The notes under the pieces: generated by a model
Told to the model about the DNA's origin: nothing
Databases searched by the model: none
Seen by the model: the letters and a program-made list of their open reading frames with translations, nothing else
Position numbers and translations under genes: made by a program
In this document: positions 1-20,357 of the stretch, in pieces
Numbering within the stretch: the stretch's first letter is position 1
Layout: every line of letters begins with the position of its first letter
Source of the DNA: a virus
Direction: 5' to 3' (one strand)
DNA: 37,444 bases
Virus record (IMG/VR): IMGVR_UViG_3300044957_000447
Location: 1-37,444 of that record

Positions 1-2694
1 AGCTTCGCCACCACCCGATTTTTTACTTTCTCCACCGGTTTCACCACCGGTTGGCTCACCACTTGCAGGTTCACTTTCACCGGTTAGATCAACTCCGCCG
101 CCAGCTTCTCCACCGGCTCCGGCACCACCTTCTTTATCTTTTGACTTTAAAAATACTAGCGCGGGGTCATTACCTTCATCCTCAATTTGCTTAAACCTAT
201 AAGATCCCTTGGCATCATCAAAAAGTTGTTTTTGTAATTCAATCATGTCTTGGTCACTCATACCAAATACATTTTCATATACCCATTTCTTACTAAACAA
301 CTTTTGTTCAGCCATGTCTTTGCTAACCTCAACCTTGCTCTTCCATACATCAATCTTTTCTTTTTCAAATATTGTAGAAGGATTGGTAAGTTCAAGACTA
401 AAATCAACCAACGATTCATCTCTATATCCTTGACTATATAAGTGAACCACAGCAATCTTGTTCAATTCACTAACAATAATACGTTGTACACGTTGAATAG
501 TACGTGCAAAACGAATATCTTCTGCTGCCAACGTTGCTTTGCCAGAAAGCGATTCATCATAACCCAAGAATGCCTTTGGAATTTTGAGTGCTGCCATCAT
601 TTTGTTTCGTAGATATTCAATATCGTCTGTACCAGTCCATTCCAGACCAGGCAAGTTATCAATACTGGTTCCGCTGTCTCCACCACGAACTGGCAAGAAA
701 ATGTCTTCAACCATGTTTTGTAGATTGAAACGAAGGTTGTAGTCACCTGTGTTTTGATCCAAATATGGAGTTTTCTTCATTTGTTGAATGATGCGATCTA
801 CGTGATTATCAACTTCATTTGGAGGAATATTACCAATATCAATCTTGAATATTCTCTTTTCTGGAGCACGCATGATACGATGAATTAACATTGCGTCTTC
901 CATCAAACTCAATTGTTTCCATACACGACGTGCGCCTTCTAATATACTCTTACCATATGGCAAGAAATTGCTATCACTCAACAATCTAAAATGTGCTATT
1001 TGATAATTTTCACATTCCTCGATTTTATTTCCATATGGCAAATTAACTTGGAATTTAACAAAATTTTTATTTGTTAAATGTGCATTTTCAATACGAGTAA
1101 CATAATAGCTGCTAAGGGGCTCTACCATGTATACACCATATTCTGGACTGATGTACAATCTCATATAAAAATCACCATATTTAACCAAACTACGAGTCCA
1201 ACTCCAAAGGTTGAATTCGATATTGAGAATGTCGTAGAACAAGTTGTTTAAGATGTTTTTAATTTCATCGTTGTTTGAACGAACTGCGATTACATCACCC
1301 ATCTCATTTCGTGTAGTACATTCGTCCGCATAAATGTCCAAAGCAGATGCCAAAATTGGGTCCATGTCCATTGTATTTGAAACGAAACAACTATCTGTTG
1401 CAAAATTTTCGTATTTTTCGACAGTAACATCATATACATCAACTTCACCGATCTGTTCTATTGATACTATTTTATGGTTTAATGTAGAAACCACTTCATT
1501 TTTGAATGATTTCCAATCGTGTCCTTCTTTTTTGAGACGATTTTGTAGAGTTGACTGATCACAATTAATATGTGCAATAAAATCCCACAAATTAATTTTT
1601 GAATATTCTTTATAGTATTCAAAAGCTTTTTCTTTTACATTCTCAAAAGTAACATCATGACGATATTTTGGATTTTTAATATCCGTTTGATCTCTATCCT
1701 TAAATGTTTCTTTTAATGTAGAATATCGTTTTTCATTGGATTCGTCGGAACGAGTTTTTCCGTAAAATGGGTTATTTTTCTCAGAACGTTCTCCATCCCA
1801 TCTGTAAAACTTTCTGTTGATATAACTTGGATGCGATTTTAACTTATTAAGTTGATTTTGATAATTATTATCTCCCCACAGTATATTTTTATTATATTCA
1901 CTGTGATATTTTTTGTGTTCTTTCCAATCCATTATGAGTAGATTGTCCGGAGAATTATTGGAACCATTTATATCTAAATGATGAACCACTTCATTTTTTC
2001 CAAGTGTTCTGTAAAATTGTTCAGCTACAATTTTATGTTCACTTTGCCATCCTTTTGAAAAATTGTATAAACGACGATATCTTTTAAATCCATGTTTTTT
2101 ATAGCCATATCCTTTCTGATAAAATGGCATTATAGAATCACCAACTCGGAGTTCAAATGTTCTTTTATATGTACCGTCCCTCATCATAAATGGATGTTTA
2201 AGACTCGCTATAATATATTGTCCGTTGTCAAATGTAACTTTATATCCTTGTCGTTTTCCACTTTTCTTTCTCGGATGATAAGCTTTTCCTAGCTTAATAC
2301 TGTCAGTTTCGTGGTCATACGAGAATACATAAAATCTTTCTTGTGGTTTATCTTTATATTTCTCAGCAAGTTCTGCTATTGTTGGAGTTGTTCCATCAGG
2401 CAACGGAACAATCGTATCTGGTCCCACGCAATCATAATCTCTAAACAGCTCTACACGACTGCTTTGATAACTAAGATTAAAGTCTCTTGTATATTGATTA
2501 TACGATGTTGTACGAAGTCTATTAAAACGGTCTCTTAGGCTGTTACGGTCTGTTGCGTATTGTATTTCATCGGTATCAATTACTTTTAATTTTTTACCAC
2601 CGACATTTCTTACAATAACATCGTTGCTAAACAATCGTTTTAATCTAGCAAATAATGAACGATTCTTTAGCTCTTGAAATGTGTTATCAGCCAT
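1..2694 (-). CDS. gp20: Portal protein (gp20-like), interrupted by an intein; 3' end outside window
   Basis: Forms the dodecameric portal at the head vertex through which DNA is packaged and to which the tail attaches. Translating from ATG 2694 gives one frame open to base 1. The N-terminal extein is residues 1-88, an intein covers 89-440, and the C-terminal extein runs from 441 to at least 898. The extein around the junction (VELFRDYD / TMDMDPILASALDIYADE) and the later APEKRIFKIDIGNIP and IPKAFLGYDESLSGKATLA segments fit T4-type portals. The visible end becomes Gly/Glu/Ser-rich (about residues 850-898), probably a flexible tail. The gene starts 26 bases after the terminase gene, the usual packaging-gene neighbourhood. 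No clear Shine-Dalgarno sequence precedes the start. The frame was checked codon by codon and has no stop. The portal call is strong; the true C-terminus is not visible. Confidence 0.9.
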   Translation of the reverse strand, partial: MADNTFQELKNRSLFARLKRLFSNDVIVRNVGGKKLKVIDTDEIQYATDRNSLRDRFNRLRTTSYNQYTRDFNLSYQSSRVELFRDYDCVGPDTIVPLPDGTTPTIAELAEKYKDKPQERFYVFSYDHETDSIKLGKAYHPRKKSGKRQGYKVTFDNGQYIIASLKHPFMMRDGTYKRTFELRVGDSIMPFYQKGYGYKKHGFKRYRRLYNFSKGWQSEHKIVAEQFYRTLGKNEVVHHLDINGSNNSPDNLLIMDWKEHKKYHSEYNKNILWGDNNYQNQLNKLKSHPSYINRKFYRWDGERSEKNNPFYGKTRSDESNEKRYSTLKETFKDRDQTDIKNPKYRHDVTFENVKEKAFEYYKEYSKINLWDFIAHINCDQSTLQNRLKKEGHDWKSFKNEVVSTLNHKIVSIEQIGEVDVYDVTVEKYENFATDSCFVSNTMDMDPILASALDIYADECTTRNEMGDVIAVRSNNDEIKNILNNLFYDILNIEFNLWSWTRSLVKYGDFYMRLYISPEYGVYMVEPLSSYYVTRIENAHLTNKNFVKFQVNLPYGNKIEECENYQIAHFRLLSDSNFLPYGKSILEGARRVWKQLSLMEDAMLIHRIMRAPEKRIFKIDIGNIPPNEVDNHVDRIIQQMKKTPYLDQNTGDYNLRFNLQNMVEDIFLPVRGGDSGTSIDNLPGLEWTGTDDIEYLRNKMMAALKIPKAFLGYDESLSGKATLAAEDIRFARTIQRVQRIIVSELNKIAVVHLYSQGYRDESLVDFSLELTNPSTIFEKEKIDVWKSKVEVSKDMAEQKLFSKKWVYENVFGMSDQDMIELQKQLFDDAKGSYRFKQIEDEGNDPALVFLKSKDKEGGAGAGGEAGGGVDLTGESEPASGEPTGGETGGESKKSGGGEA
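1375..2430 (-). other. Intein with HNH homing endonuclease inside the portal protein
   Basis: In-frame protein insertion of 352 residues that should splice itself out of the portal. It begins with Cys1 (CVGPDTIVPLPDG, block A) directly after the portal motif FRDYD. Intein residues 75-79 (SLKHP) look like block B with Ser in place of the usual Thr. The ending VYDVTVEKYENFATDSCFVSN is like blocks F and G. Its last Asn is followed by Thr as the +1 nucleophile, and the usual penultimate His is Ser. The centre holds an HNH nuclease (VVHHLDINGSNNSPDNL then EHKKYH, about residues 148-176). A NUMOD3-like stretch (NNPFYGKTRSDE, about 219-230) and a possible helix-turn-helix (about 280-310) follow. The parts are complete enough to expect both splicing and homing, but the Ser before the terminal Asn could slow splicing. 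Confidence 0.9.
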
Positions 2695-2720: not shown

Positions 2721-4202
2721 TTACAATAACCAATTTAAACTTTCTTTTTTACCTCCAGCAACTCCTCCTTGTACTTCACCCGCACTGAATTGCCAAGTTC
2801 TCATAGGATCGTCAACCGGACTTACATCTCGTACATCTTTAGTAACCATAACCCCCGAATCTTTTCTGGTTATTTTGCCAAGCATCGCTCGATTATATGC
2901 AATCTGCTCATTGCGGAGTTTCAAAGCAGTTTCTCGTACCCAAAGTCCTATACCAAATGACATTACTAAATCGTCATTATAACCTTTCATAGCTTCTGCT
3001 TTTGGTCCGTTCCATACAAATACATTTAATTCTTCCAATATTCTGTTTGATTTTATAATAATTTGTTTTTGACGAAAAAATAGTTCTAAGTTACTAATAA
3101 CCAACGGTCTAGTTTTAGTTGTAGTACTAAAACCTGGTATTAGTTTTTTATCTTGACTGTTAAGTTTATTTGTATATGTTTTTTCTACATCTACAATAGC
3201 CAAATCAGCTGAACTATAAAAAGTATTTTGATAATCTCTATCTATAACTTGTTGTAGAGCTGCCCATCCTTGATTGTTATTTTCTACTACCAATAAAGCA
3301 TTATTATATTCCGTAGCTACGGTTACTAACAAATTGCCGTAGTCTTTCGTAGTTAACTGACCTTTATATTCAGCCACTTGTTCCATTGTTTCTATATCAA
3401 TTATATGAAAAGCACTAAAGTCTGCTCCATCTCCTCTAGCACAGTCAGCCGTAACCATATAATTTTTACTATAGTTTGGATAGTCCCAGATCCATAAATC
3501 TTGTCGATTGCCCCGTCTTTCTATAGGATCTTTAATATAAGTTTGTTTATAAAATTCAAGAATATCAGTATTTACAACTTGATTACCCGATGTTGAAAAA
3601 TTACAATCACATTCTTGTGCAGCACCTTTTACACCTGATAATTCAGTTTGTTTGTCACGCCAAGATTGGTCTCGCTCCGGATGTAAATGCCAAGGCAAAC
3701 TTATAGTTTTAAAATTATTTTTTCCTTCTTCAGCTTCAACCCAAGTTTTGTGGAAAAAATTACCTACACCATTCGGAGTACTTAATACAATTGCTCTACC
3801 ACCGGTGCTTAATGTATATTGAGAGGATAACCATATTTCTTCTATACCATCAATAAATGCACAATTATGACTTACAACATCGTTGGAATAAAATTCTTGA
3901 TTTTTTTCAATATTCAATAAATCATACAAATCGGTTTTTTTAACAATTGTTCTTTTTGATTTTACAATTTTATCTATACCATTTTTTCCCTGTAATATCA
4001 TTCCGTTTTTAATTTGTAAGGCATATATAAATGTATTATCTTTTAATTTAAGTTTATGTGATGTCGAACATTCTATATGAGTTTCATCTTCGAAAACAAT
4101 TTTAACAATTCTATCTTTAACAACCTTTTTAATGCCTGAAAAATTGCTCCAACCAGATGGAGTCAATACTTCCCAGTCATTTATATTTTTAATATCACTC
4201 AT
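2721..4202 (-). CDS. terL: Large terminase C-terminal gene: split-intein C-half plus nuclease domain
   Basis: Second half of the DNA-packaging motor ATPase/nuclease. Residues 1-113 are the C-terminal part of a split intein. Residues 114-493 are the rest of the terminase, beginning CAFIDGIEEIW, which continues the Walker B strand left at the end of the upstream gene. GGRAIVLSTPNGVGN (about 134-148) is the ATPase coupling region. The RNase H-type nuclease shows Asp253 in TADCARGDGADF, Glu307 in VVENNNQG, and Asp410/411 in KGYNDDLVMSFG. The two exteins total 160 + 380 = 540 residues, a reasonable terminase length. ATG 4202 is the only possible ATG in this frame because a stop lies nine bases upstream. 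It lies in a different frame from the N-terminal gene, so splicing in trans is needed. The Shine-Dalgarno sequence is weak. Confidence 0.9.
   Translation of the reverse strand: MSDIKNINDWEVLTPSGWSNFSGIKKVVKDRIVKIVFEDETHIECSTSHKLKLKDNTFIYALQIKNGMILQGKNGIDKIVKSKRTIVKKTDLYDLLNIEKNQEFYSNDVVSHNCAFIDGIEEIWLSSQYTLSTGGRAIVLSTPNGVGNFFHKTWVEAEEGKNNFKTISLPWHLHPERDQSWRDKQTELSGVKGAAQECDCNFSTSGNQVVNTDILEFYKQTYIKDPIERRGNRQDLWIWDYPNYSKNYMVTADCARGDGADFSAFHIIDIETMEQVAEYKGQLTTKDYGNLLVTVATEYNNALLVVENNNQGWAALQQVIDRDYQNTFYSSADLAIVDVEKTYTNKLNSQDKKLIPGFSTTTKTRPLVISNLELFFRQKQIIIKSNRILEELNVFVWNGPKAEAMKGYNDDLVMSFGIGLWVRETALKLRNEQIAYNRAMLGKITRKDSGVMVTKDVRDVSPVDDPMRTWQFSAGEVQGGVAGGKKESLNWLL
3864..4202 (-). other. C-terminal half of a split intein (IntC, 113 residues)
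   Basis: Residues 1-113 of the downstream terminase gene. VLTPSGWSNFSGIKKV then IVFEDETHIECSTSHKL form the early intein beta strands and a block B-like segment (STSH, with Ser at the usual Thr position). DLYDLLNIEKNQEFYSNDVV followed by SHN is the block F/G ending with His-Asn, and the next residue is Cys. Layout and wording resemble, from memory, the AceL-TerL family of atypically split terminase inteins, whose long C-part starts with its own Met. Together with the 33-residue N-part the intein totals 146 residues, a mini-intein with no room for an endonuclease. Strong call on structure; splicing activity is inferred. Confidence 0.9.
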
Positions 4203-4279
4203 ATATTTTTAGTCTCAAATGATATAGAAATTTATTCATCGAGGAGTGTTGAGTTTTATCAACCTCACAAAACGTTATG
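4203..4279 (-). other. Break between the two split terminase genes
   Basis: Seventy-seven bases separate the stop of the N-terminal terminase gene from the ATG of the C-terminal gene. No endonuclease or other protein is encoded here. A small hairpin can form at 4244-4266 (stem gttga/tcaac plus gag/ctc around one bulged base), with no T-run after it on the minus strand, so it is not a typical terminator. The motif AGACTAAAA lies just before the downstream start (4207-4215). Confidence 0.6.
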
Positions 4280-4861
4280 TTATATATATTCTTTTTGCTC
4301 ATATAATTCACCAATATTAACCGGCTTCACTTCACCAGTCAATTTGTTACGAATGTATATAGTATTGTGAAACCCCAAACACTCATCAATAATTAATAGT
4401 GACAAAGCTGTTGAACGACCTGCGGTGCCAGCACTAGATACCGCTTTGATTTGAGATCCATTTTTAAGACGCAGTGATAGACGATTGTCTTCTATACATG
4501 GAACCTTTAACCAAGCTGGAAGATTATCATTTGCAAACCTAACTTTTGTAACGATTTCTTTTGCGGTTTCTTGAGTAATACTAATACAGAGAATATTCTT
4601 ATCACTGTGAAACGTCATCAACCATAAACTATAAGCCGATGTGAGCGTGCTAATGCCCATCTGTCTACTTTTAAGAACTATGTTAAGACTGTTTTCAACG
4701 AAATCTTTAAGTGTACTTTCTTGAAATGGATACAACTCAAAGTTTACAGTTCCTCTTACAGGATGTTGTATTTTAACATACTTTTTTATGAAGTATATAG
4801 GGTCTTCTATACACTTCTTATATTCACTTTTTATTATTTCTCTTAGATTTGGCTGACTCAT
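4280..4861 (-). CDS. terL: Large terminase N-terminal gene: ATPase half plus split-intein N-half
   Basis: First half of the packaging ATPase. Residues 1-160 are extein: an adenine-binding/Q-motif region (ELYPFQ, 42-47), a deviant P-loop LKSRQMGIST (63-72), a central ATPase strand region (NILCISITQETAKEIVTKV), and a Walker B strand ending LLIIDE (155-160). In T4 gp17 this acidic pair is followed by CAFI; here residue 161 starts an intein instead. Residues 161-193 are the intein N-part, then a stop. The P-loop lacks Lys just after Gly; a Lys five residues earlier (Lys64) could serve, as in lambda gpA (KSARVGYS). The start overlaps the previous gene by 38 bases and has a good AGAGG six bases upstream. 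This protein alone cannot be a working terminase; it needs trans-splicing. Confidence 0.92.
   Translation of the reverse strand: MSQPNLREIIKSEYKKCIEDPIYFIKKYVKIQHPVRGTVNFELYPFQESTLKDFVENSLNIVLKSRQMGISTLTSAYSLWLMTFHSDKNILCISITQETAKEIVTKVRFANDNLPAWLKVPCIEDNRLSLRLKNGSQIKAVSSAGTAGRSTALSLLIIDECLGFHNTIYIRNKLTGEVKPVNIGELYEQKEYI
4283..4381 (-). other. N-terminal half of a split intein (IntN, 33 residues)
   Basis: Residues 161-193 of the upstream terminase gene. It begins with Cys1 in CLGFHNTIYIRNKLTGEVKP and continues VNIGELYEQKEYI before a TAA stop. This matches intein block A and the strand after it, with the typical IxELY pattern. The split comes before block B, unlike DnaE-type split inteins, which break after about 100 residues, so it is an atypical split site. 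It should bind the C-part encoded at 3864-4202 and join LLIIDE to CAFIDG. Confidence 0.9.
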
Positions 4862-7295: not shown

Positions 7296-8801
7296 TTATT
7301 TCCGAATCCATTCAAATTTCATATGTCCACAGTCCCAAATTCTATCATAATCATTAAGTTGCATATTTTGCCATTCACTTAAATTATTATCAAACTTGTC
7401 AAGTTTTTTACTTAATTTATGTTTTTGGAAATGGGTTCTTTCAATTAGTACACCTTTATTTTTATGAAAATAATGATATCCAGGAGGAGTATTATCAACA
7501 AAACTCAGCCCAATTTGATTGTATAAATTACCAGTAAATAACCGTCTATCACTGTATGTCACAATAGAATTTACAGCATAGTTTTTTGTAAAATAATCAA
7601 ATAATTTAGAAGCGCCCCCTATGACATTTGTATTCAATAAATTACAGTATCTAGACAATTCGTACTGATATTTTTTGTCATATCTGGATTTAACAAATGT
7701 CATCAAGCAAACCAAGTTGTCTGCATAGTATAAACTCAATCTTATAGAAGATGTATCATCTCCCTGTATATGATTATTAATGAGAAAGGTTGATTTATCA
7801 TCATTATTTACCTCTTTAATAATACATTTTCTAGCATAAATTTTTTTAGATTTACCAATTTTATTTAATAAAATGCTTTTTATTATATCTTGTTTACATC
7901 TCCATTCCCAATCCCATATGTGCATCAAATTTATATTTTTATTTGAAGATAATGTTGTTTTATTTAAATGATAATCTTTATTTTTACCACCCGCAAGTTC
8001 ACTGTGCCAATATATTCCGTCACATTCTATACCTAAATTTAAATGCGGCATTACAATATCAATTTCTTCTCCGTCTAATACACTTCTATCGTGGTGTTTC
8101 GTTGTAATATTATGTGAATGTAAAAAACCCAAAATTTCAGTTTCAATTGAAGATTTAAACCTATTATGTGGATTGCATATTAAACATCTAGGTATATTTC
8201 CTGAATATAAATTATCTTCAAACTCATTATTACATATACAACATTTGAATTTATATAAATTATTATAATCTGTCCCTACATATTCACTTTTGTTAAATAA
8301 TGGAGTAACTATACCTTTCAATCTATTTCCTTCAAAAATGTTATGTAAAGATTCTTGAATTTTATGAGTTCTTCGTTTTTCCTTTACCGATGATAATTGA
8401 GATATATTATCAATGTTATTATTTTCCAAATATTGTTTATATTTTTCAGACTTAAAACCAATTTCCCCACTATTAGCTCTTTCTTTTGTTTTTTTAAGAG
8501 TATTTGGAGACACATTCATGCCATACTTCTCATTGTTGGTTTTTAACATTTTTTCTCTATTATTAAAATTTTTATCTCCGTATTTCTCCAGTTTAGTTTT
8601 TTTGCTTTTTTCTAAATTATTGTAATTTTCATCGCCATATCTCTCTTTTAAAGTTTCTTTCATTTTGGAAATCATATTATCATATGCACCATTTTCCCTT
8701 TTCCGTTTTATTTTTTCTTTAACACTGGGCAATTGTGATGGATGATATACACCATATTTTTTAAAAAACGATTCTCTAATTTTTTTACCTCTTTCAGTCA
8801 T
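7296..8801 (-). CDS. Free-standing Vsr-like homing endonuclease
   Basis: About 501 residues from ATG 8801. This start has AGGAG eight bases upstream; an in-frame TTG at 8807 is too close to it. The N-terminal 140 residues carry repeated KYG-type motifs (KKYGVYHPSQ, ERYGDENYNN, EKYGDKNFNN, EKYGMNVSPN), typical of modular DNA-binding repeats of homing enzymes. A zinc-ribbon-like Cys cluster follows (CCIC and CLIC). The nuclease core shows EEIDIVMPHLNLGIECDGIYWHSE with Asp248, Glu259, Asp261 and His266, fitting the Vsr-fold EDxHD homing endonuclease family (I-Bth0305I type). The C-terminal domain (INNHIQGDDTSS, YSDRRLFTGNLYNQIGL) is often linked to such nucleases. It should cut a specific site and promote its own spread. 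That family is known from fractured phage genes with split inteins, and a split intein lies 3 kb away. Confidence 0.85.
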   Translation of the reverse strand: MTERGKKIRESFFKKYGVYHPSQLPSVKEKIKRKRENGAYDNMISKMKETLKERYGDENYNNLEKSKKTKLEKYGDKNFNNREKMLKTNNEKYGMNVSPNTLKKTKERANSGEIGFKSEKYKQYLENNNIDNISQLSSVKEKRRTHKIQESLHNIFEGNRLKGIVTPLFNKSEYVGTDYNNLYKFKCCICNNEFEDNLYSGNIPRCLICNPHNRFKSSIETEILGFLHSHNITTKHHDRSVLDGEEIDIVMPHLNLGIECDGIYWHSELAGGKNKDYHLNKTTLSSNKNINLMHIWDWEWRCKQDIIKSILLNKIGKSKKIYARKCIIKEVNNDDKSTFLINNHIQGDDTSSIRLSLYYADNLVCLMTFVKSRYDKKYQYELSRYCNLLNTNVIGGASKLFDYFTKNYAVNSIVTYSDRRLFTGNLYNQIGLSFVDNTPPGYHYFHKNKGVLIERTHFQKHKLSKKLDKFDNNLSEWQNMQLNDYDRIWDCGHMKFEWIRK

Positions 8802-8809
8802 ATACAATA

Positions 8810-8908: not shown

Positions 8909-11900
8909 TCAGACATTAAAAGATGCGCCCGTAGGAAGTATGTTGAAATCAAGTATGATGAATTCAGCAGTACGGGCTGGTTGAATAAAAATTTGACCAT
9001 ATAGAATATTTCTATCTATCAAATCAGGCGTATTATTTGTATCATCCATCTTAACTTGGAAGGCAAAGATACCATTTCTTTGTTGTACAGATTCCAAATA
9101 TGGATTTACAATACTCAAGAAACGATTTCTTGTGGCGGCAACATTTTGTTCGAATACCAAGTAGTTGCTGCTGCTTGCTATAAACTTCTTCAAGTTGATC
9201 AACAAGCGGCGAACATTAATACGATCCAAAGCACTTGGAGCGATTTGAAGTGTCTTTTGACCCCAGACACAGATACCTTGACCAGGGAATGCTGCGATTG
9301 GATTTACACGACCTTCATAGAGAGTGTCACGTTCACTGTGAGTTACTCTATCAAGCACTTGTACAGCTTGTGTAATTCCACCACGATTCAAACCGGCTGG
9401 AGCGAACCATTCAGCAGCAGCATTATCGTTAGCAGCATAAATTGCTGGTAATACAACACTTGGTGGTACACTGATAATCTTGTTAGTATTTGTATCCAAG
9501 ATCTTAACCCAAGGATAATATGTGGCAACATAGTTACTGTCGATTGTAGCTACACTGTTGATAGCAGCATCAATCAATCCTACGGTTTGATTACTTGCTG
9601 GGAACACTACATTGTCCATGATGTAGAAACAATCTTGACGAGTTTCACACATGTCAATTACTAACTGTGTAACATAACTATGTTGTTCACGGAAGATACC
9701 AGGCAACACTATCAAGTTGATGTCAAATTCATCGGGATTACCGAGAGCAGCAATAGCTTGTTTATAACCGATGCTACCTGGGCTATTGATATTTGTACAA
9801 TCTAAACCTTGTGTATTACCGGCGGTAATATCACTGCCTACATTGATAGGAATTGCTGGCCATTGACCATCAAATCCGCCTTGAAAACCTACGATAAACT
9901 TACGAAGTCTAACATAAGTGCTTTCATTTACAGCATCATATGTACTTGGAATACTACCACTCAAGCTTGGAGCGAGTAATGAACCTGTACTTGCTGATAC
10001 ACCTTGAGCATAATATTTAGCAATCGATGTGCCCCAAACTTTATCTTCGAGATCGAAATCAATATTCAACCCATTACTATCTACACTTCCAAAGTATGGA
10101 AGAGGTTTGAAATATTGCTTTGTATCAGTATCGACACCTACACCAAATGATGAGGTTGGATAAAGTTTTTGAATTTCATCACTGGCTTCTGGTAATCCGC
10201 CAAAAACTGTACCAGATGGATATTTACCAGGGCCTAACCCGTAAATACTAGCTTTACTATATTTTACAGTAGGTATATAAATGTTTGCTGTACTATCAAT
10301 TGGTGTAAGATAAGATTCAAATCCGTAAGGAACACATGTGCTTGGATAAGCAATATCATTCGTTTCAATTCTGATATACTTACTTAAAGTATTATATGTT
10401 CCGAATTCTATAATCTTACCAGCGAAAGTAATATAAGCATACTTATCACCAATTTTACGAGCAATAAAGTTTGCACTATTAGGATCTAAGTTACAGTTTT
10501 GGAATATTTCCAAATACTTAGGACGTTTATCAGTATCACTATAAGCACGAACTGCCAATGTAAATGTACCGTAGTCGCTTCCAGGTACTGTACCTGCTAA
10601 CTTGACATTACTAATTTCAATCTTATACTTTTGATTGCTTAATGTACCATCACTCAAAGTATGAACCTTGAACAACTTAAATTTAGTTGGTACAGCGGCT
10701 TCGTTTGCACTACCTTTAAATGGAGCAATTTTTTGACTGTAGATCCACGGTGTCTTAGCATTTGTGATACTAAATTGGCTATCGCCAGCGTTTAAGTTTG
10801 TACTATATTGATCGACAAACTTAAGTGGTTCTCCAACAAATGAACTGCCTGAAAGATCACTGGTACCTACCATCAATTTCCAACCTAATGTACTTGTCTT
10901 TTCAGCTACGAATTTTTTAATACTATCTTCGAATAATACATAATTGTAAGCAGCTTCAACTTTTTGACCAGCAATTTGTTTTGATGGGTTACCTACCGTA
11001 GGATTTGTACCAAATACATCTTTAATATAGTTATTATCACTTTCATTTAATGTGAAATCATAATAACCATATGTTCCGGAAGAAGTACTTCCATCTGGAT
11101 TGACAAAGTTATACTTAAGTGCTAAATTATAAAGATTTTCATTAGGATTAATAACTCCCTTATATGGGAATGTACTACTTGTTACTTGTGAAAGCGTTGT
11201 AGTATTAAATCCATATACTTCAAAATCATTACTAAATTGTGTTGAAGCATTTTGTGTATTAGCTAATACGGCGACAATCATTTTTTGACGGCCATCAATG
11301 TTTGGATTACATGCATCTATACCATCATTATTATCGCTTGGTGTAAATGTTCCATCGTATTTACCATATTCACCACTTATAACACCGTTTAATTCAACTC
11401 CAGAACTACAAGCGCCTGATATTCTTACCGAAGCAAAACTTGCACTGTTTAAGTCAACATCTGTATTAGCTTCGTAGTTAAAATTATTAGTATTGACTGT
11501 CAATGTGTGATTAAAATATGAAGAACTTAACAAATAAGTTGTTGTAGTACTTTCATCGAATGCTGTAGATATTGCTGTTTCAGGTGAAACATCTTGACCT
11601 TGAACACTTGATGTTAAATAAAAGTAAGGTAATTTTAGACCTACGCCTTTTCTATTAAATACAACATTGGTTATTGTACCAATTTGAATAGTTTTGCCTG
11701 CATATAGTATACTACCACTTAAATCAGCGGCGTCCCCTCCATTTAATTGACTAGTAACAATTGCTGATGTAGCAGATATATCACCGAAGGCCGCTGTAAT
11801 ATCACCTGATAACGACAGTCTTGATATATCATATCTCGAAAGTATTTTTACAGAAGATGATAACCCCGAACCAGGATTTCCTGTTGAATTGCCACCAATA

Positions 11901-12907
11901 CTAGCAGTATAAAAACTAATATTTTGTTTTGAACGTGCAAATACAAATCCGTAGTTGATGTCAGAACCAACTTGAGTAAATGAATTTGTTAAATAATTTA
12001 AATACAAAGGTCTGGCCATTGGTGCTTTATTAATACTTCCACTTCCAGCGTCATTCCAAGCAGTATCAAATGTAAGTACATGGGTGGCCGGCCCGCCCTC
12101 GCCCTCCTTGACCAGTGATCCAGAAACACTTAAACTTCCACTTACGCGAGAAAGTTCAGGATGAAATGGCGCTAATGTGTAACCCGAGGTTTTATCAACT
12201 TTTTTACCATTTTTTGTAACAGATGTACTGAATCTATTACTTAATTCACGGGTAGTAATACTAAATAATTTACCTTTACTTGCAGATGTATATAATAAAC
12301 TATTTAACGTGGATATATTTGGTAAATCACCTAATGCTGTAATAAATGTATCAATACTTGATGTAGCTATACTACCTGTAATTTTACTAAACTTTAACGA
12401 AGCTGACATGAATCCAGACGGTTTATTACCACCTAAATCGGATGATCCAGTTATATTCCAAATTGAACTACTGTGTTGATAATTAAATGTCGATAGATAA
12501 TTTCCACTATCAACTGAAATAAACGAATCCTCACTTAATGCACCCAAATCCTCGTTTCTACCCCATGTACCTGGTTGAGCAAAAATGATCAATGGATTCT
12601 TCTGCCAGTAGCCTGTAAGACCGCCTACACGAACCACTGTTACAATACCTTGTTCTTGAAGATATTGTTTTGCTGTATATGGTCCGTAATAAACTCCATC
12701 TGCTACTCCGAATGTAGATTCTAAAGTTGATACTTCGGTCATTGTTTTTGGAAAAAATGCTGGACCGTCAGCAAACGGAGCAACTATAGCTCCACCTATG
12801 TTAGCGACTCCTTGCGCTAGACCTGATAAATCGTTTTCTCTGGTAAATACACCAGCACTTACTATATTTTGAGTTGGGGCGAATTTTCCACCTTCTGTTA
12901 TTGGCAT
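8909..12907 (-). CDS. gp18: Contractile tail sheath protein (gp18-like), very large
   Basis: Subunit of the tail sheath that contracts to drive the tube through the host envelope. The N-terminus (TQNIVSAGVFTRENDLSG, then FAPFADGPAFFPKTMTEV and TVVRVGGL, about residues 1-110) and C-terminal third (about 990-1332) match T4-type sheaths. The latter has FIVGFQGGFDG, NVRRLLINLKKFIASSSNYLVFEQN, and DRNILYGQIFIQPARTAEFIILDF. Between them lie roughly 870 residues rich in Ser, Thr, Gly and Asn that the 659-residue T4 gp18 lacks; they probably form extra surface domains. The gene stands alone, with a candidate late promoter 60 bases upstream, an AAAGGA Shine-Dalgarno sequence and a strong terminator behind it, fitting a protein needed in many copies. 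A short GC-rich patch interrupts the insertion. The sheath call is strong; the role of the insert is unknown. Confidence 0.93.
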   Translation of the reverse strand: MPITEGGKFAPTQNIVSAGVFTRENDLSGLAQGVANIGGAIVAPFADGPAFFPKTMTEVSTLESTFGVADGVYYGPYTAKQYLQEQGIVTVVRVGGLTGYWQKNPLIIFAQPGTWGRNEDLGALSEDSFISVDSGNYLSTFNYQHSSSIWNITGSSDLGGNKPSGFMSASLKFSKITGSIATSSIDTFITALGDLPNISTLNSLLYTSASKGKLFSITTRELSNRFSTSVTKNGKKVDKTSGYTLAPFHPELSRVSGSLSVSGSLVKEGEGGPATHVLTFDTAWNDAGSGSINKAPMARPLYLNYLTNSFTQVGSDINYGFVFARSKQNISFYTASIGGNSTGNPGSGLSSSVKILSRYDISRLSLSGDITAAFGDISATSAIVTSQLNGGDAADLSGSILYAGKTIQIGTITNVVFNRKGVGLKLPYFYLTSSVQGQDVSPETAISTAFDESTTTTYLLSSSYFNHTLTVNTNNFNYEANTDVDLNSASFASVRISGACSSGVELNGVISGEYGKYDGTFTPSDNNDGIDACNPNIDGRQKMIVAVLANTQNASTQFSNDFEVYGFNTTTLSQVTSSTFPYKGVINPNENLYNLALKYNFVNPDGSTSSGTYGYYDFTLNESDNNYIKDVFGTNPTVGNPSKQIAGQKVEAAYNYVLFEDSIKKFVAEKTSTLGWKLMVGTSDLSGSSFVGEPLKFVDQYSTNLNAGDSQFSITNAKTPWIYSQKIAPFKGSANEAAVPTKFKLFKVHTLSDGTLSNQKYKIEISNVKLAGTVPGSDYGTFTLAVRAYSDTDKRPKYLEIFQNCNLDPNSANFIARKIGDKYAYITFAGKIIEFGTYNTLSKYIRIETNDIAYPSTCVPYGFESYLTPIDSTANIYIPTVKYSKASIYGLGPGKYPSGTVFGGLPEASDEIQKLYPTSSFGVGVDTDTKQYFKPLPYFGSVDSNGLNIDFDLEDKVWGTSIAKYYAQGVSASTGSLLAPSLSGSIPSTYDAVNESTYVRLRKFIVGFQGGFDGQWPAIPINVGSDITAGNTQGLDCTNINSPGSIGYKQAIAALGNPDEFDINLIVLPGIFREQHSYVTQLVIDMCETRQDCFYIMDNVVFPASNQTVGLIDAAINSVATIDSNYVATYYPWVKILDTNTNKIISVPPSVVLPAIYAANDNAAAEWFAPAGLNRGGITQAVQVLDRVTHSERDTLYEGRVNPIAAFPGQGICVWGQKTLQIAPSALDRINVRRLLINLKKFIASSSNYLVFEQNVAATRNRFLSIVNPYLESVQQRNGIFAFQVKMDDTNNTPDLIDRNILYGQIFIQPARTAEFIILDFNILPTGASFNV
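12081..12113. other. GC-rich patch inside the sheath gene
   Basis: A 33-base stretch that is mostly G and C within an otherwise AT-rich gene. On the minus strand it encodes part of SLVKEGEGGPATHVL, using GGC, GGG, CCG and GCC codons that are rare around it. The reading frame stays open. Confidence 0.6.
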
Positions 12908-17168: not shown

Positions 17169-20100
17169 CTATTTATATAGTACTTTGCTAAATCCGTTTT
17201 CTTTTTTTATTTCAATCTGACGGTCTACCATGTCTCTCATTTGATCCAAATGACTAATCACCCAGATAAAATCAAATTGATTCTTCAAATAACTAAATAA
17301 AGCGCCCATTTGACCTAAATGATCACTATCTGCACATCCAAATCCTTCATCAATGCAGATAATATTTGGTCTTGGTAAGTTACTTATATTAATAAGTGCA
17401 ACTCTAATGGCTAATCCACTGACAAACTTTTCCATTCCACTTGCCATTTCAAGTGGCCACTTTTTATCATCATAAACGATGTTCGTCATGATATTCTTAC
17501 CATCGGTTTGAAGAGTAACACTGAACTCCACAACTTGATGTAGAATGTTATTTACTTCTTTCTCAATCTCGGGAAGAGTCTTTGTAATAATCTCGTAAGG
17601 TATGCCATCCCGGCTAATTATATTTGTATATAACTTATAAGACTCATATTGAGTTTCAAGTTCCTTAACTTTATTAAGTTTCTCTAATAAATCATTGTAT
17701 TGAAAATCAAAAGTTCCCTTTTGGGTAGACGCACTAAACAAGCTGTTATTAATAGATTTAATTTGTCCATCAATTGTTTTAATGACCGACTTTATTTCTT
17801 CAATCTCAACAAGCAACTTTGAATTATTTTCAATAATATCTTTATTTTTATAAAATGTATCAATACTTTCTTCAACATTCTTCAATTTATTCTGAATGGT
17901 GATTAGATTGTTCTCATTTTGTAACATAGAACCATTAATTGTACTTTTATTCTTTTCAAGAGTCAACTTTTCATTATTTAGTTGATTGCATTTTGAATAT
18001 AGTGATTCAACATCGCCATACGATTCTAATTTTTCTTTAATTGCATTAAACTCTCCAACAATTACACTTGCTCTTTCTTTGTCTTGGTTAAGTTCTTCTT
18101 TCGTCTTGATTGCATCTTTTACGAATACATTGTTTACACAATACGAACAATTTGGGTCATATTTGTGTCCCTCAAGTTTCTTCAACTTGTCAACTTTATT
18201 TTTGATAACAAGTTTTAACGTGTCAATTTCCTTTTCTTTATCGTTAAATTTCTTTTTCCAATCTTTAAATTCAACATAACGATTTTCAATATTTTCACAC
18301 TCTTCAAGTGAAGAACTTAACTTGGTTAACTTGTCTTCTACAGACTGTAATTTAGCCTTTTGATCAACAAATTCACAATTGACTTTAGTTATCTTACTAC
18401 ATAAATCTGTCTTTTCTTTCTCCAACTTTACTATATCAAAGTTGAAGTTGTCTGCTTTTATTATATTATTTGATAATTCAAGCAATTTATTGCCCCACGA
18501 TTCTTTTTCAGTTTCTTTTTCTTTAATCTGTGTAGTATAAGATACAATATTATTGTTATTAGTTGTTATACTACCGGTGACAAATGTTAATTGATTCTCC
18601 AATTCATCCTTGCTTGAATTCTTAAGCAAAGTATTGATTTCTTTGTACTTATCATTTGCGATAGTATAAAGTTGATCAAACAGATTCAAACCCATGAACT
18701 GACACAATAAATCCTTTCGTTCAGTCTGACCTAAATCAATAAACGATCCAGCCTTGCTGTTTTGAATACTAAGTACGGTCAAAATGAAATCTTCGTATGT
18801 GCCAACATAATCTCTAATAATATCGTTGGTACTTCTACGTGCCTCACCATTGAGTGGCACTTCGTTACCATCCTTATCAGTCTTGTAGAACTTGACTTCA
18901 ACCTTGACATTACCCTTTTTATCAGATTTACCTTCTCGTTCAATAAAATAGTCTACTCCACTTACCTCAAAATTAAATTTACATTTGAAACCCATCTTTT
19001 GGGTGTTCATTACGTGGCTAGCCTTAAATCCTTTGCTGAATTTATCAAATACACAAAATGCAAGGGCATCCATAATACTAGATTTACCGCTAGCATTTGG
19101 TGCAAATAGGCCGATAGTACCTTTTAGCTTGGTAAAATCAATATAATTACCTTCACCATAACTAAACATATTATCAAATTCAAAAGTCTTAGGCTTCCAA
19201 CGAATGTTTTTCGGTGCCTTATCCTTGGCTATTTCCTTATTAATAGTCTTGTTAAGTTCCTTTACCGTTTCAATTAGAACCTTATCTGTGTTCTTGGCTA
19301 CTAGATTATCTTCAATAAGTTTGTTTTGATAATCTACATCTAATATGTTGTGAATATCAAACACTTGTCCGTTTTTGAGCGTCAAATCAACTTCAGCTTC
19401 ATCTACTCTGATAAATGTTGACTCAAGAATTTCACATCTATCCTTGATATTATTCATTATCTCTTTTACCTGTGACGGTATAGACTCAAAACACTTGGTT
19501 CGTATACGAGCCTTCTTTGGCATATTGGTAATATCAGTTACCAACTTACCTTTATTGATTTCTACAGTAAAGTAACCATATTCATTGGGCAGTTCATAAT
19601 GTTTGAATGATTTACTTTTTAAGTCCCACATTACAAATCCATGTCCCCTAATATCTTCACCGTGATTTTGTTGAATCATACTCGATGCATAAACCATAAC
19701 TGGTTTATTGTCAACTTCATCGTATTCTTGTAGTATCTGATGTTTGTGAATATCACCTAACATTGCGATATGATGACCATTAAATAGTTCATTTGTTATA
19801 GAACGATTGCTTACGGTATAACCAATATCAGTAACCGCATTATGTACTGGTCCGTGGAATAATGCTATATGATAATCGGTTTCTATCTTATATTTGGATG
19901 GAATATCATCGTACTTAATGTATTTATCGAGGTCATCAAATACACTAAAGTTATTGAATAGTATATTTTCATAACGATATACATCTGTATCCTTAAGATA
20001 ATACAAATTGTTGTGTTGAAGTGCTTCAACAATAGGAGTCAAACAATCTAGACGAGACTTATTAGCAAGTGTAGCGTCGTGATTTCCTGCGGTCAATATA

Positions 20101-20357
20101 GTAGGTACTCTGTCTGCACAATTTTTAAGAAAATCGCTACCAATCTTTACACATTCGGGACTTAAATCACTCTTATTATGAAATACATCACCTGCAATAA
20201 CCAATACAGAACTCATCTTCTTCACTTTATCAAGAGCTTGATAGAATTTGTTGAATATAGCAGTGTATTCATCGTGCCTCTTGGTGAGACGAATGTGAAT
20301 ATCGGCAATATGCACTACTACATTGATTTTAGTATCTGTATTTTTAAGTAATTTCAT
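17169..20357 (-). CDS. gp47-gp46: Fused Mre11-Rad50 recombination nuclease (gp47-gp46 / SbcD-SbcC in one chain)
   Basis: Processes DNA ends for recombination-dependent replication and host DNA breakdown, normally as a two-protein complex. Here one 1062-residue chain carries both. Residues 1-345 are the Mre11/gp47 phosphoesterase: ADIHIR (Asp19, His21), AGDVFHNKSD (Asp57), AGNHD (His93), FHGPVH (His168) and MLGDIHKHQ (His204, His206). After a linker (about 346-385), residues 386-1062 are Rad50/gp46. These include Walker A GLFAPNASGKSS (416-427), a long coiled coil with zinc hook CSYC (737-740), the signature region MASGMEKFVSGLAIRVAL (971-988), Walker B NIICIDEGFG (998-1007) and the His switch VISH (1033-1036). 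All key motifs are present. T4 uses two genes of 339 and 560 residues. The start overlaps the primase stop by ATGA. Confidence 0.95.
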   Translation of the reverse strand: MKLLKNTDTKINVVVHIADIHIRLTKRHDEYTAIFNKFYQALDKVKKMSSVLVIAGDVFHNKSDLSPECVKIGSDFLKNCADRVPTILTAGNHDATLANKSRLDCLTPIVEALQHNNLYYLKDTDVYRYENILFNNFSVFDDLDKYIKYDDIPSKYKIETDYHIALFHGPVHNAVTDIGYTVSNRSITNELFNGHHIAMLGDIHKHQILQEYDEVDNKPVMVYASSMIQQNHGEDIRGHGFVMWDLKSKSFKHYELPNEYGYFTVEINKGKLVTDITNMPKKARIRTKCFESIPSQVKEIMNNIKDRCEILESTFIRVDEAEVDLTLKNGQVFDIHNILDVDYQNKLIEDNLVAKNTDKVLIETVKELNKTINKEIAKDKAPKNIRWKPKTFEFDNMFSYGEGNYIDFTKLKGTIGLFAPNASGKSSIMDALAFCVFDKFSKGFKASHVMNTQKMGFKCKFNFEVSGVDYFIEREGKSDKKGNVKVEVKFYKTDKDGNEVPLNGEARRSTNDIIRDYVGTYEDFILTVLSIQNSKAGSFIDLGQTERKDLLCQFMGLNLFDQLYTIANDKYKEINTLLKNSSKDELENQLTFVTGSITTNNNNIVSYTTQIKEKETEKESWGNKLLELSNNIIKADNFNFDIVKLEKEKTDLCSKITKVNCEFVDQKAKLQSVEDKLTKLSSSLEECENIENRYVEFKDWKKKFNDKEKEIDTLKLVIKNKVDKLKKLEGHKYDPNCSYCVNNVFVKDAIKTKEELNQDKERASVIVGEFNAIKEKLESYGDVESLYSKCNQLNNEKLTLEKNKSTINGSMLQNENNLITIQNKLKNVEESIDTFYKNKDIIENNSKLLVEIEEIKSVIKTIDGQIKSINNSLFSASTQKGTFDFQYNDLLEKLNKVKELETQYESYKLYTNIISRDGIPYEIITKTLPEIEKEVNNILHQVVEFSVTLQTDGKNIMTNIVYDDKKWPLEMASGMEKFVSGLAIRVALINISNLPRPNIICIDEGFGCADSDHLGQMGALFSYLKNQFDFIWVISHLDQMRDMVDRQIEIKKENGFSKVLYK

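Follow-up and report, generated by a model that had tools for sequence, protein, structure and literature searches.

Inteins in the structural, non-enzyme genes of phages have been little studied. Portal inteins have already been reported in the cluster C1 mycobacteriophages (PMC5050341). Seven intein sites are known in Prp8 (PMC6805012) and seven in the terminases of mycobacteriophages (PMC5050341). Class 1 phage inteins without a penultimate His have likewise been reported in mycobacteriophages, where the block-F His is able to take over the role of the penultimate one and where splicing of one intein with a penultimate Gly became worse once this residue was mutated to His (PMC5050341). The intein considered here interrupts the gene for the portal, the essential DNA-entry protein, of an uncultured T4-like phage (IMG/VR record IMGVR_UViG_3300044957_000447, positions 1 to 37,444; this whole 37,444-nt stretch is referred to as the window).

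The portal intein and its domains

The portal ORF lies on the minus strand, begins at position 2694 and continues past position 1, where the window edge cuts off its C-terminus. It encodes a T4-type, gp20-like portal protein which matches Portal_T4 (Pfam) on the extein with an E-value of 2.1e-68, and its joined exteins match the solved T4 gp20 portal (3ja7) at 1.7e-23. The N-extein (2431..2694, minus strand) consists of 88 residues ending in LFRDYD, and the C-extein (1..1374, minus strand) starts with TMDMDP. Between them lie exactly 352 codons (2430..1375, minus strand; precursor residues 89-440) encoding an intein of about 41 kDa that begins with CVGPDTIV and ends with ATDSCFVSN, and the reading frame is open across both junctions. 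The original prediction of a complete 352-residue intein between FRDYD and TMDMDP is borne out by the unbroken ORF and by intein profiles at both ends; its position and extent were right, and the strand, which it had not given, is minus.

The intein matches the Pfam Intein_splicing model at 9e-18 (65 bits against a cut-off of 35.8) and both terminal NCBIfam intein models above their cut-offs. The N-terminal splicing part (2116..2430, minus strand; residues 1-105; intein_Nterm, TIGR01445, 6.6e-10) contains the nucleophilic Cys1, which opens the in-frame insert where class 1 inteins have C or S, and the block B motif (T/S)xxH as S76-L-K-H79. The C-terminal splicing part (1375..1482, minus strand; residues 317-352; intein_Cterm, TIGR01443, 3.8e-5) can be aligned with DnaE and DnaB inteins and contains D334 of block F and S351-N352 of block G, so that the class 1 arrangement of a C-terminal Asn followed by C, S or T is present as N352 and T+1. 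The penultimate His, which is usual but not obligatory in class 1, is absent, its place being taken by Ser351, and the block-F His position is occupied by Glu341.

The HNH core (1903..2037, minus strand; residues 132-176) matches the HNH endonucleases of PHROGs at 2.3e-13 and Pfam HNH_3 at 3.4e-5, the latter at 23.8 bits narrowly under the cut-off of 24.8. It is followed by a NUMOD3-like segment (1732..1779, minus strand; residues 218-233, NNPFYGK..S.ESN..R) which scores 18.8 bits (0.0016) against Pfam NUMOD3, again narrowly under the cut-off of 20.4, and by a helical, HTH-like C-terminal part of the endonuclease region (1486..1653, minus strand; residues 260-315) that presumably contacts DNA and has weak TetR/AraC HTH matches (VIA Z about 6). 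The HNH part of the original prediction is recovered with its motif intact, and the NUMOD3-like part as a match under its threshold. Across 30 aligned alleles the splicing residues C1, S76, H79, D334 and N352 are invariant, as are H150, H151, N159, N163, H172 and H176 of the HNH and N220, P221, F222, K225 and S231 of the NUMOD3-like segment.

An AlphaFold2 model built from these 30 alleles (mean pLDDT 77.9) shows the helices of the HTH-like part, and its splicing part can be superimposed onto the Ssp DnaB intein (1mi8; VIA Z 17.3, rmsd 2.1 over 133 residues), identifying a HINT fold. The endonuclease part alone gave no strong match in a search of PDB structures (Z about 5-6). A chance resemblance or pseudo-intein is ruled out by the profile scores together with the 56 loci encoding relatives in a first scan of IMG/VR. 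A class 3 intein is ruled out as well, with Cys1 present and block F containing D334 in VYDVT and no Cys nucleophile. By its residues and profiles the insert is a class 1 intein with an HNH endonuclease, ordinary in kind, and is very probably functional.

The splice junction

The original prediction singled out Ser-Asn/Thr as a less common combination, which proved overstated. Among 51 distinct alleles the penultimate residue varies freely between H, K, S, G, R and A, and the +1 residue is Thr in every allele with a readable junction. Class 1 phage inteins without a penultimate His are already published, which makes the Ser-Asn/Thr ending unremarkable. The well-studied Npu DnaE intein also natively ends in Ser-Asn. 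More notable is that the clade of the window intein lacks both His residues. A His is found in block F only (YHNF) in 20 of the 51 alleles, in the penultimate position only in 15, in both positions in one and in neither in the remaining 15, which include the window intein with its Glu341 and Ser351. This apparent avoidance of both His residues together gives a Fisher p of 6e-4, a value that ignores the relatedness of the alleles and serves as a lead only. The naturally occurring alleles of this site, some having and some lacking the two usual His residues, provide a ready series for studying Asn cyclisation in their absence.

Distribution of the intein

A profile scan of IMG/VR found 272 stretches with relatives of the intein. 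After removal of duplicates, 57 distinct portal ORFs remain that are interrupted at spliced-portal residue 88, a sample that is enriched for intein carriers; in a comparison unbiased for the intein, seven of the 80 best portal matches carry it, in intact form in three cases and truncated or frameshifted in four. N-exteins 90-100% identical to that of the window occur in relatives both with and without the intein. Occupied and empty alleles are found together in single metagenomes, namely 3300020183 (L002, L028), 3300010160 (L103, L050) and 3300020204 (L003, L038). The insertion is at precisely one site, and the flanking DNA is conserved in both occupied and empty alleles, as required of a homing site. 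The empty site of L031, for example, differs from the window at five positions of the 60-base flank. Portal inteins with frameshifts or out-of-frame deletions are seen at L012 (1094-2027), L118 (5001-6055) and L122 (5001-6064); unless due to sequencing errors or to a split arrangement, these would disrupt the portal.

Phage isolate records hold no close relative, the best full-length matches being 27-28% identical and located in other genes, and the scanned GTDB genome contigs hold no relative. A bacterial reservoir was rejected on the same GTDB result, and plasmids gave only matches to the HNH core, in Deinococcus. The earlier statement that no portal intein had been described at this site stands as far as isolates and the searchable papers are concerned, but not for IMG/VR, where the 57 distinct portal ORFs partly bear out what had been named as grounds for doubting it, namely that the site is a common one. 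The insertion place is new as far as could be checked.

Mobility and endonuclease turnover

The intein has moved horizontally between related phages. The window shares an identical (100%) N-extein with L142 and an intein of 84% identity, N-exteins of 94-95% and inteins of 64-65% with L061, L110 and L171, and an N-extein of 69% and an intein of 77% with L224. Over 1275 pairs the identities of intein and N-extein are correlated with r = 0.23. A 12-member extein clade imposed on the intein data is rejected (AU p 1.4e-70), as is a 7-member intein clade imposed on the extein data (AU p 1.8e-43); both clades were chosen with the trees already in view, a bias far too small to account for likelihood differences of 236 and 241 units. 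Purifying selection acts on the HNH, whose motif is intact in 48 of the 51 distinct alleles. Against its four nearest alleles the window has a dN/dS of 0.06-0.09 across the full intein and of 0.06-0.15 in the HNH part, values that are rough because synonymous sites are near saturation. With the intein and extein trees in conflict and the HNH under purifying selection, the window intein probably still homes or did so recently. The suggestion in the original prediction that it may still home can be raised to probable on these grounds and on the existence of intein-free alleles.

A contig of metagenome 3300044954, found as L001 (also L081 and L140), is 100% identical to the window at the DNA level from intein nucleotide 31 to the window end, about 2.4 kb. 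Just upstream it is only about 70% identical, with the last mismatch 13 bases before the intein and the junction at about locus position 2486-2529. Its upstream part resembles L131, L174 and L162, and beyond the end of the window it resembles the window-like L012, L142, L060 and others. L001 could be the product of a recent recombination at the edge of the intein or an assembly chimera. It was not accepted as proof of recent homing because everything downstream is window-like, which one crossover or a chimera explains equally well.

The endonuclease region has itself changed at residue 88. The intein of L125 is reduced to 263 residues; the HNH is gone and most of the NUMOD3-like and helical parts are kept. 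L127 and L261 have a quite different intein middle with zinc-ribbon-like repeats by sequence, and that of L127 holds an HNH of Pfam PF01844. The DNA of L127 and L182 is 96% identical over the upstream extein and the first ~320 intein bases, has no detectable similarity in the intein middle and aligns once more, at 91% identity, across the final 35 codons and on through the C-extein. This pair looks like the replacement of an endonuclease within one intein.

Proposed mechanism and alternatives

Taken as a whole, the locus very likely contains a class 1 intein that houses an HNH homing endonuclease, lies in a conserved portal stretch, and both splices itself out and homes. Judging from the residues and the fold, Cys1 would attack the peptide bond after extein Asp-88, Thr+1 would take over the N-extein and Asn352 would cyclise without either a penultimate or a block-F His, leaving the exteins joined as a normal portal. 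In a co-infection by related phages, the HNH domain, guided by the helical and NUMOD3-like segments, would cut those portal alleles that lack the intein, in or close to GATTATGAT/ACAATGGAYATGGA (the site is also given as GATTATGAT/ACAATGGA), and the intein would spread as the break is repaired from the copy that carries it. We infer that the HNH was the cutting enzyme behind past transfers. An HNH of this type is not indispensable for the persistence of the intein, since two alleles have a different endonuclease and one is without the HNH.

The survival of the intein in L125 after loss of the HNH would also fit an intein that splices but is immobile, its HNH a relic, and that is inherited vertically or carried along passively when phages recombine in the ordinary way. 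Such phages do recombine freely, and L001, the sole very recent transfer signal that involves the window, is a single junction. This is nevertheless an unlikely explanation given the HNH residues that are all intact in nearly every allele, the low dN/dS of the window HNH against its nearest alleles and the strong incongruence of intein and extein. The junction of L001 at the 5' edge of the intein, a possible chimera, and the frameshifts inside the inteins of L012, L118 and L122 are what could be cited for a chimeric insert or chimeric junctions created by assembly. The recurrence of an identical insertion site with an open frame in 57 distinct portal ORFs from many unrelated metagenomes leaves this with next to no probability; as an account of the presence of the intein it is already refuted, and it could apply to L001 only.

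Since the window clade lacks both the penultimate and the block-F His, like the other alleles of its class (15 of 51), slow or conditional splicing is conceivable, and the intein might act as a regulator which times the assembly of the portal ring. Conditional inteins are known (PMC6195587), and in other inteins splicing responded to changes of the penultimate residue (PMC5050341). However, some 90% of the nearest portal relatives are intein-free (seven of the 80 best matches carry it), so the intein is not needed by the portal, and nothing was found that points to regulation; such a role is highly improbable. Self-splicing combined with homing remains the preferred reading, and its homing cycle is directly testable because the portal family supplies dozens of alleles at one site, empty sites from the same samples, an HNH-deletion derivative and an endonuclease swap.

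The portal gene as a target of multiple inteins

Inserts in portal ORFs were placed by aligning each ORF to the joined exteins of the window with cheap long gaps. They fall at nine positions of the spliced portal, residues 88, 97, 106, 151, 230, 243, 364, 367 and 371, the last three being distinct by sequence (EEDL/SGKATL, SGK/STL and KATLA/SED). The evidence for some positions comes from one to three lineages, and that for 371 from a single one (L106/L133 and the overlapping L164/L194). NCBIfam intein models match representatives of all nine; the residue-151 representative falls slightly short in the N-terminal model (22.2 bits, cut-off 24.5) and matches another intein-bearing model at 1e-27. 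L106 and L133 each encode four inteins in one 1929-aa portal ORF. L202 has at residue 106, with Cys+1, an intein related to those at residue 88 (48% identity to that of the window), and its presence there suggests a move between sites. At residue 151, L133 and L170 encode portal inteins that start with Pro rather than Cys or Ser (SWTRNM/PVKYDSYIPLL...FIKN/CKYGDF), representing two lineages.

The T4-type portal of this uncultured virus group would seem, on balance, to be among the most intein-invaded genes known, with at least nine non-allelic sites, up to four inteins per ORF, one intein with an N-terminal Pro and endonucleases exchanged between nearly identical phages while the splicing domain stays fixed. 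No description of such a portal hot spot in T4-type phages was found in the searched literature, which covered few subscription papers. The hot spot is the interesting part of the system and merits a proper survey.

Other mobile elements and unusual genes

The large terminase subunit of the window (2721-4861, minus strand) is encoded by two ORFs with an apparent split (fractured) intein at Walker B (LLIIDE/CAFIDG), made up of a 33-aa N-intein (4283-4381) and a 113-aa C-intein (3864-4202); the latter matches the engineered consensus intein CatC at 3.8e-14. The same split intein is present in L082 (2000-3600), L118 (2000-3600) and L130 (790-2360), with a free-standing endonuclease ORF between the halves that encodes a TnsA-like N domain and NUMOD3; the window has only about 77 bases there. 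The terminase exteins of L130 and the window are 94-97% identical, their split inteins only about 50%. An intein-like terminase insert at another site, around residue 86 of the C-terminal half, is found in L017, L063, L075, L084, L088, L113, L115 and L125. A nine-site portal beside an intein-rich terminase suggests that homing elements share the head-packaging genes of these phages as a common trading ground.

Elsewhere on the minus strand the window encodes a free-standing homing endonuclease (7296-8807) of PHROG 3339 (7e-109) with a weak MTES_1575 restriction-type domain. A 1062-aa ORF (17169-20357, minus strand) seems to join an SbcC-like ATPase to an SbcD-like nuclease, the latter matched by residues 14-96; the two are usually encoded by separate genes. 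The tail sheath protein (8909-12907, minus strand) is very long at 1332 aa and has sheath domains only in its last 300 residues.

Comparison with known systems

HNH-containing class 1 inteins are found elsewhere in the ribonucleotide reductase of the huge phage LR756501, where the intein is unannotated (626333-627232, L138), and in SP15_022 of Bacillus phage SP-15. Like the window intein they have HINT halves around an HNH, but they reside in other host genes and are 27-28% identical to it over their full length. The HNH region also gives a weak profile match (E 0.024) to the phage HNH homing endonuclease I-HmuI (1u3e), which is intron-encoded whereas the HNH of the window is nested in an intein. 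The PORT inteins of cluster C1 mycobacteriophages (PMC5050341) likewise interrupt a phage portal, in another phage group. In the huge phages LR756508 and LR756511, T4-type portals are also interrupted by unannotated inteins, at other residues of the spliced portal (230, 243, 367 and about 106); LR756508 (L136) has three such inteins in a single portal ORF, where residue 88 is free, and the ORF preceding its portal contains another intein-like insert. With many non-allelic sites in one essential gene, the portal resembles Prp8 and the mycobacteriophage terminases, its own count being nine with up to four inteins in a single ORF.
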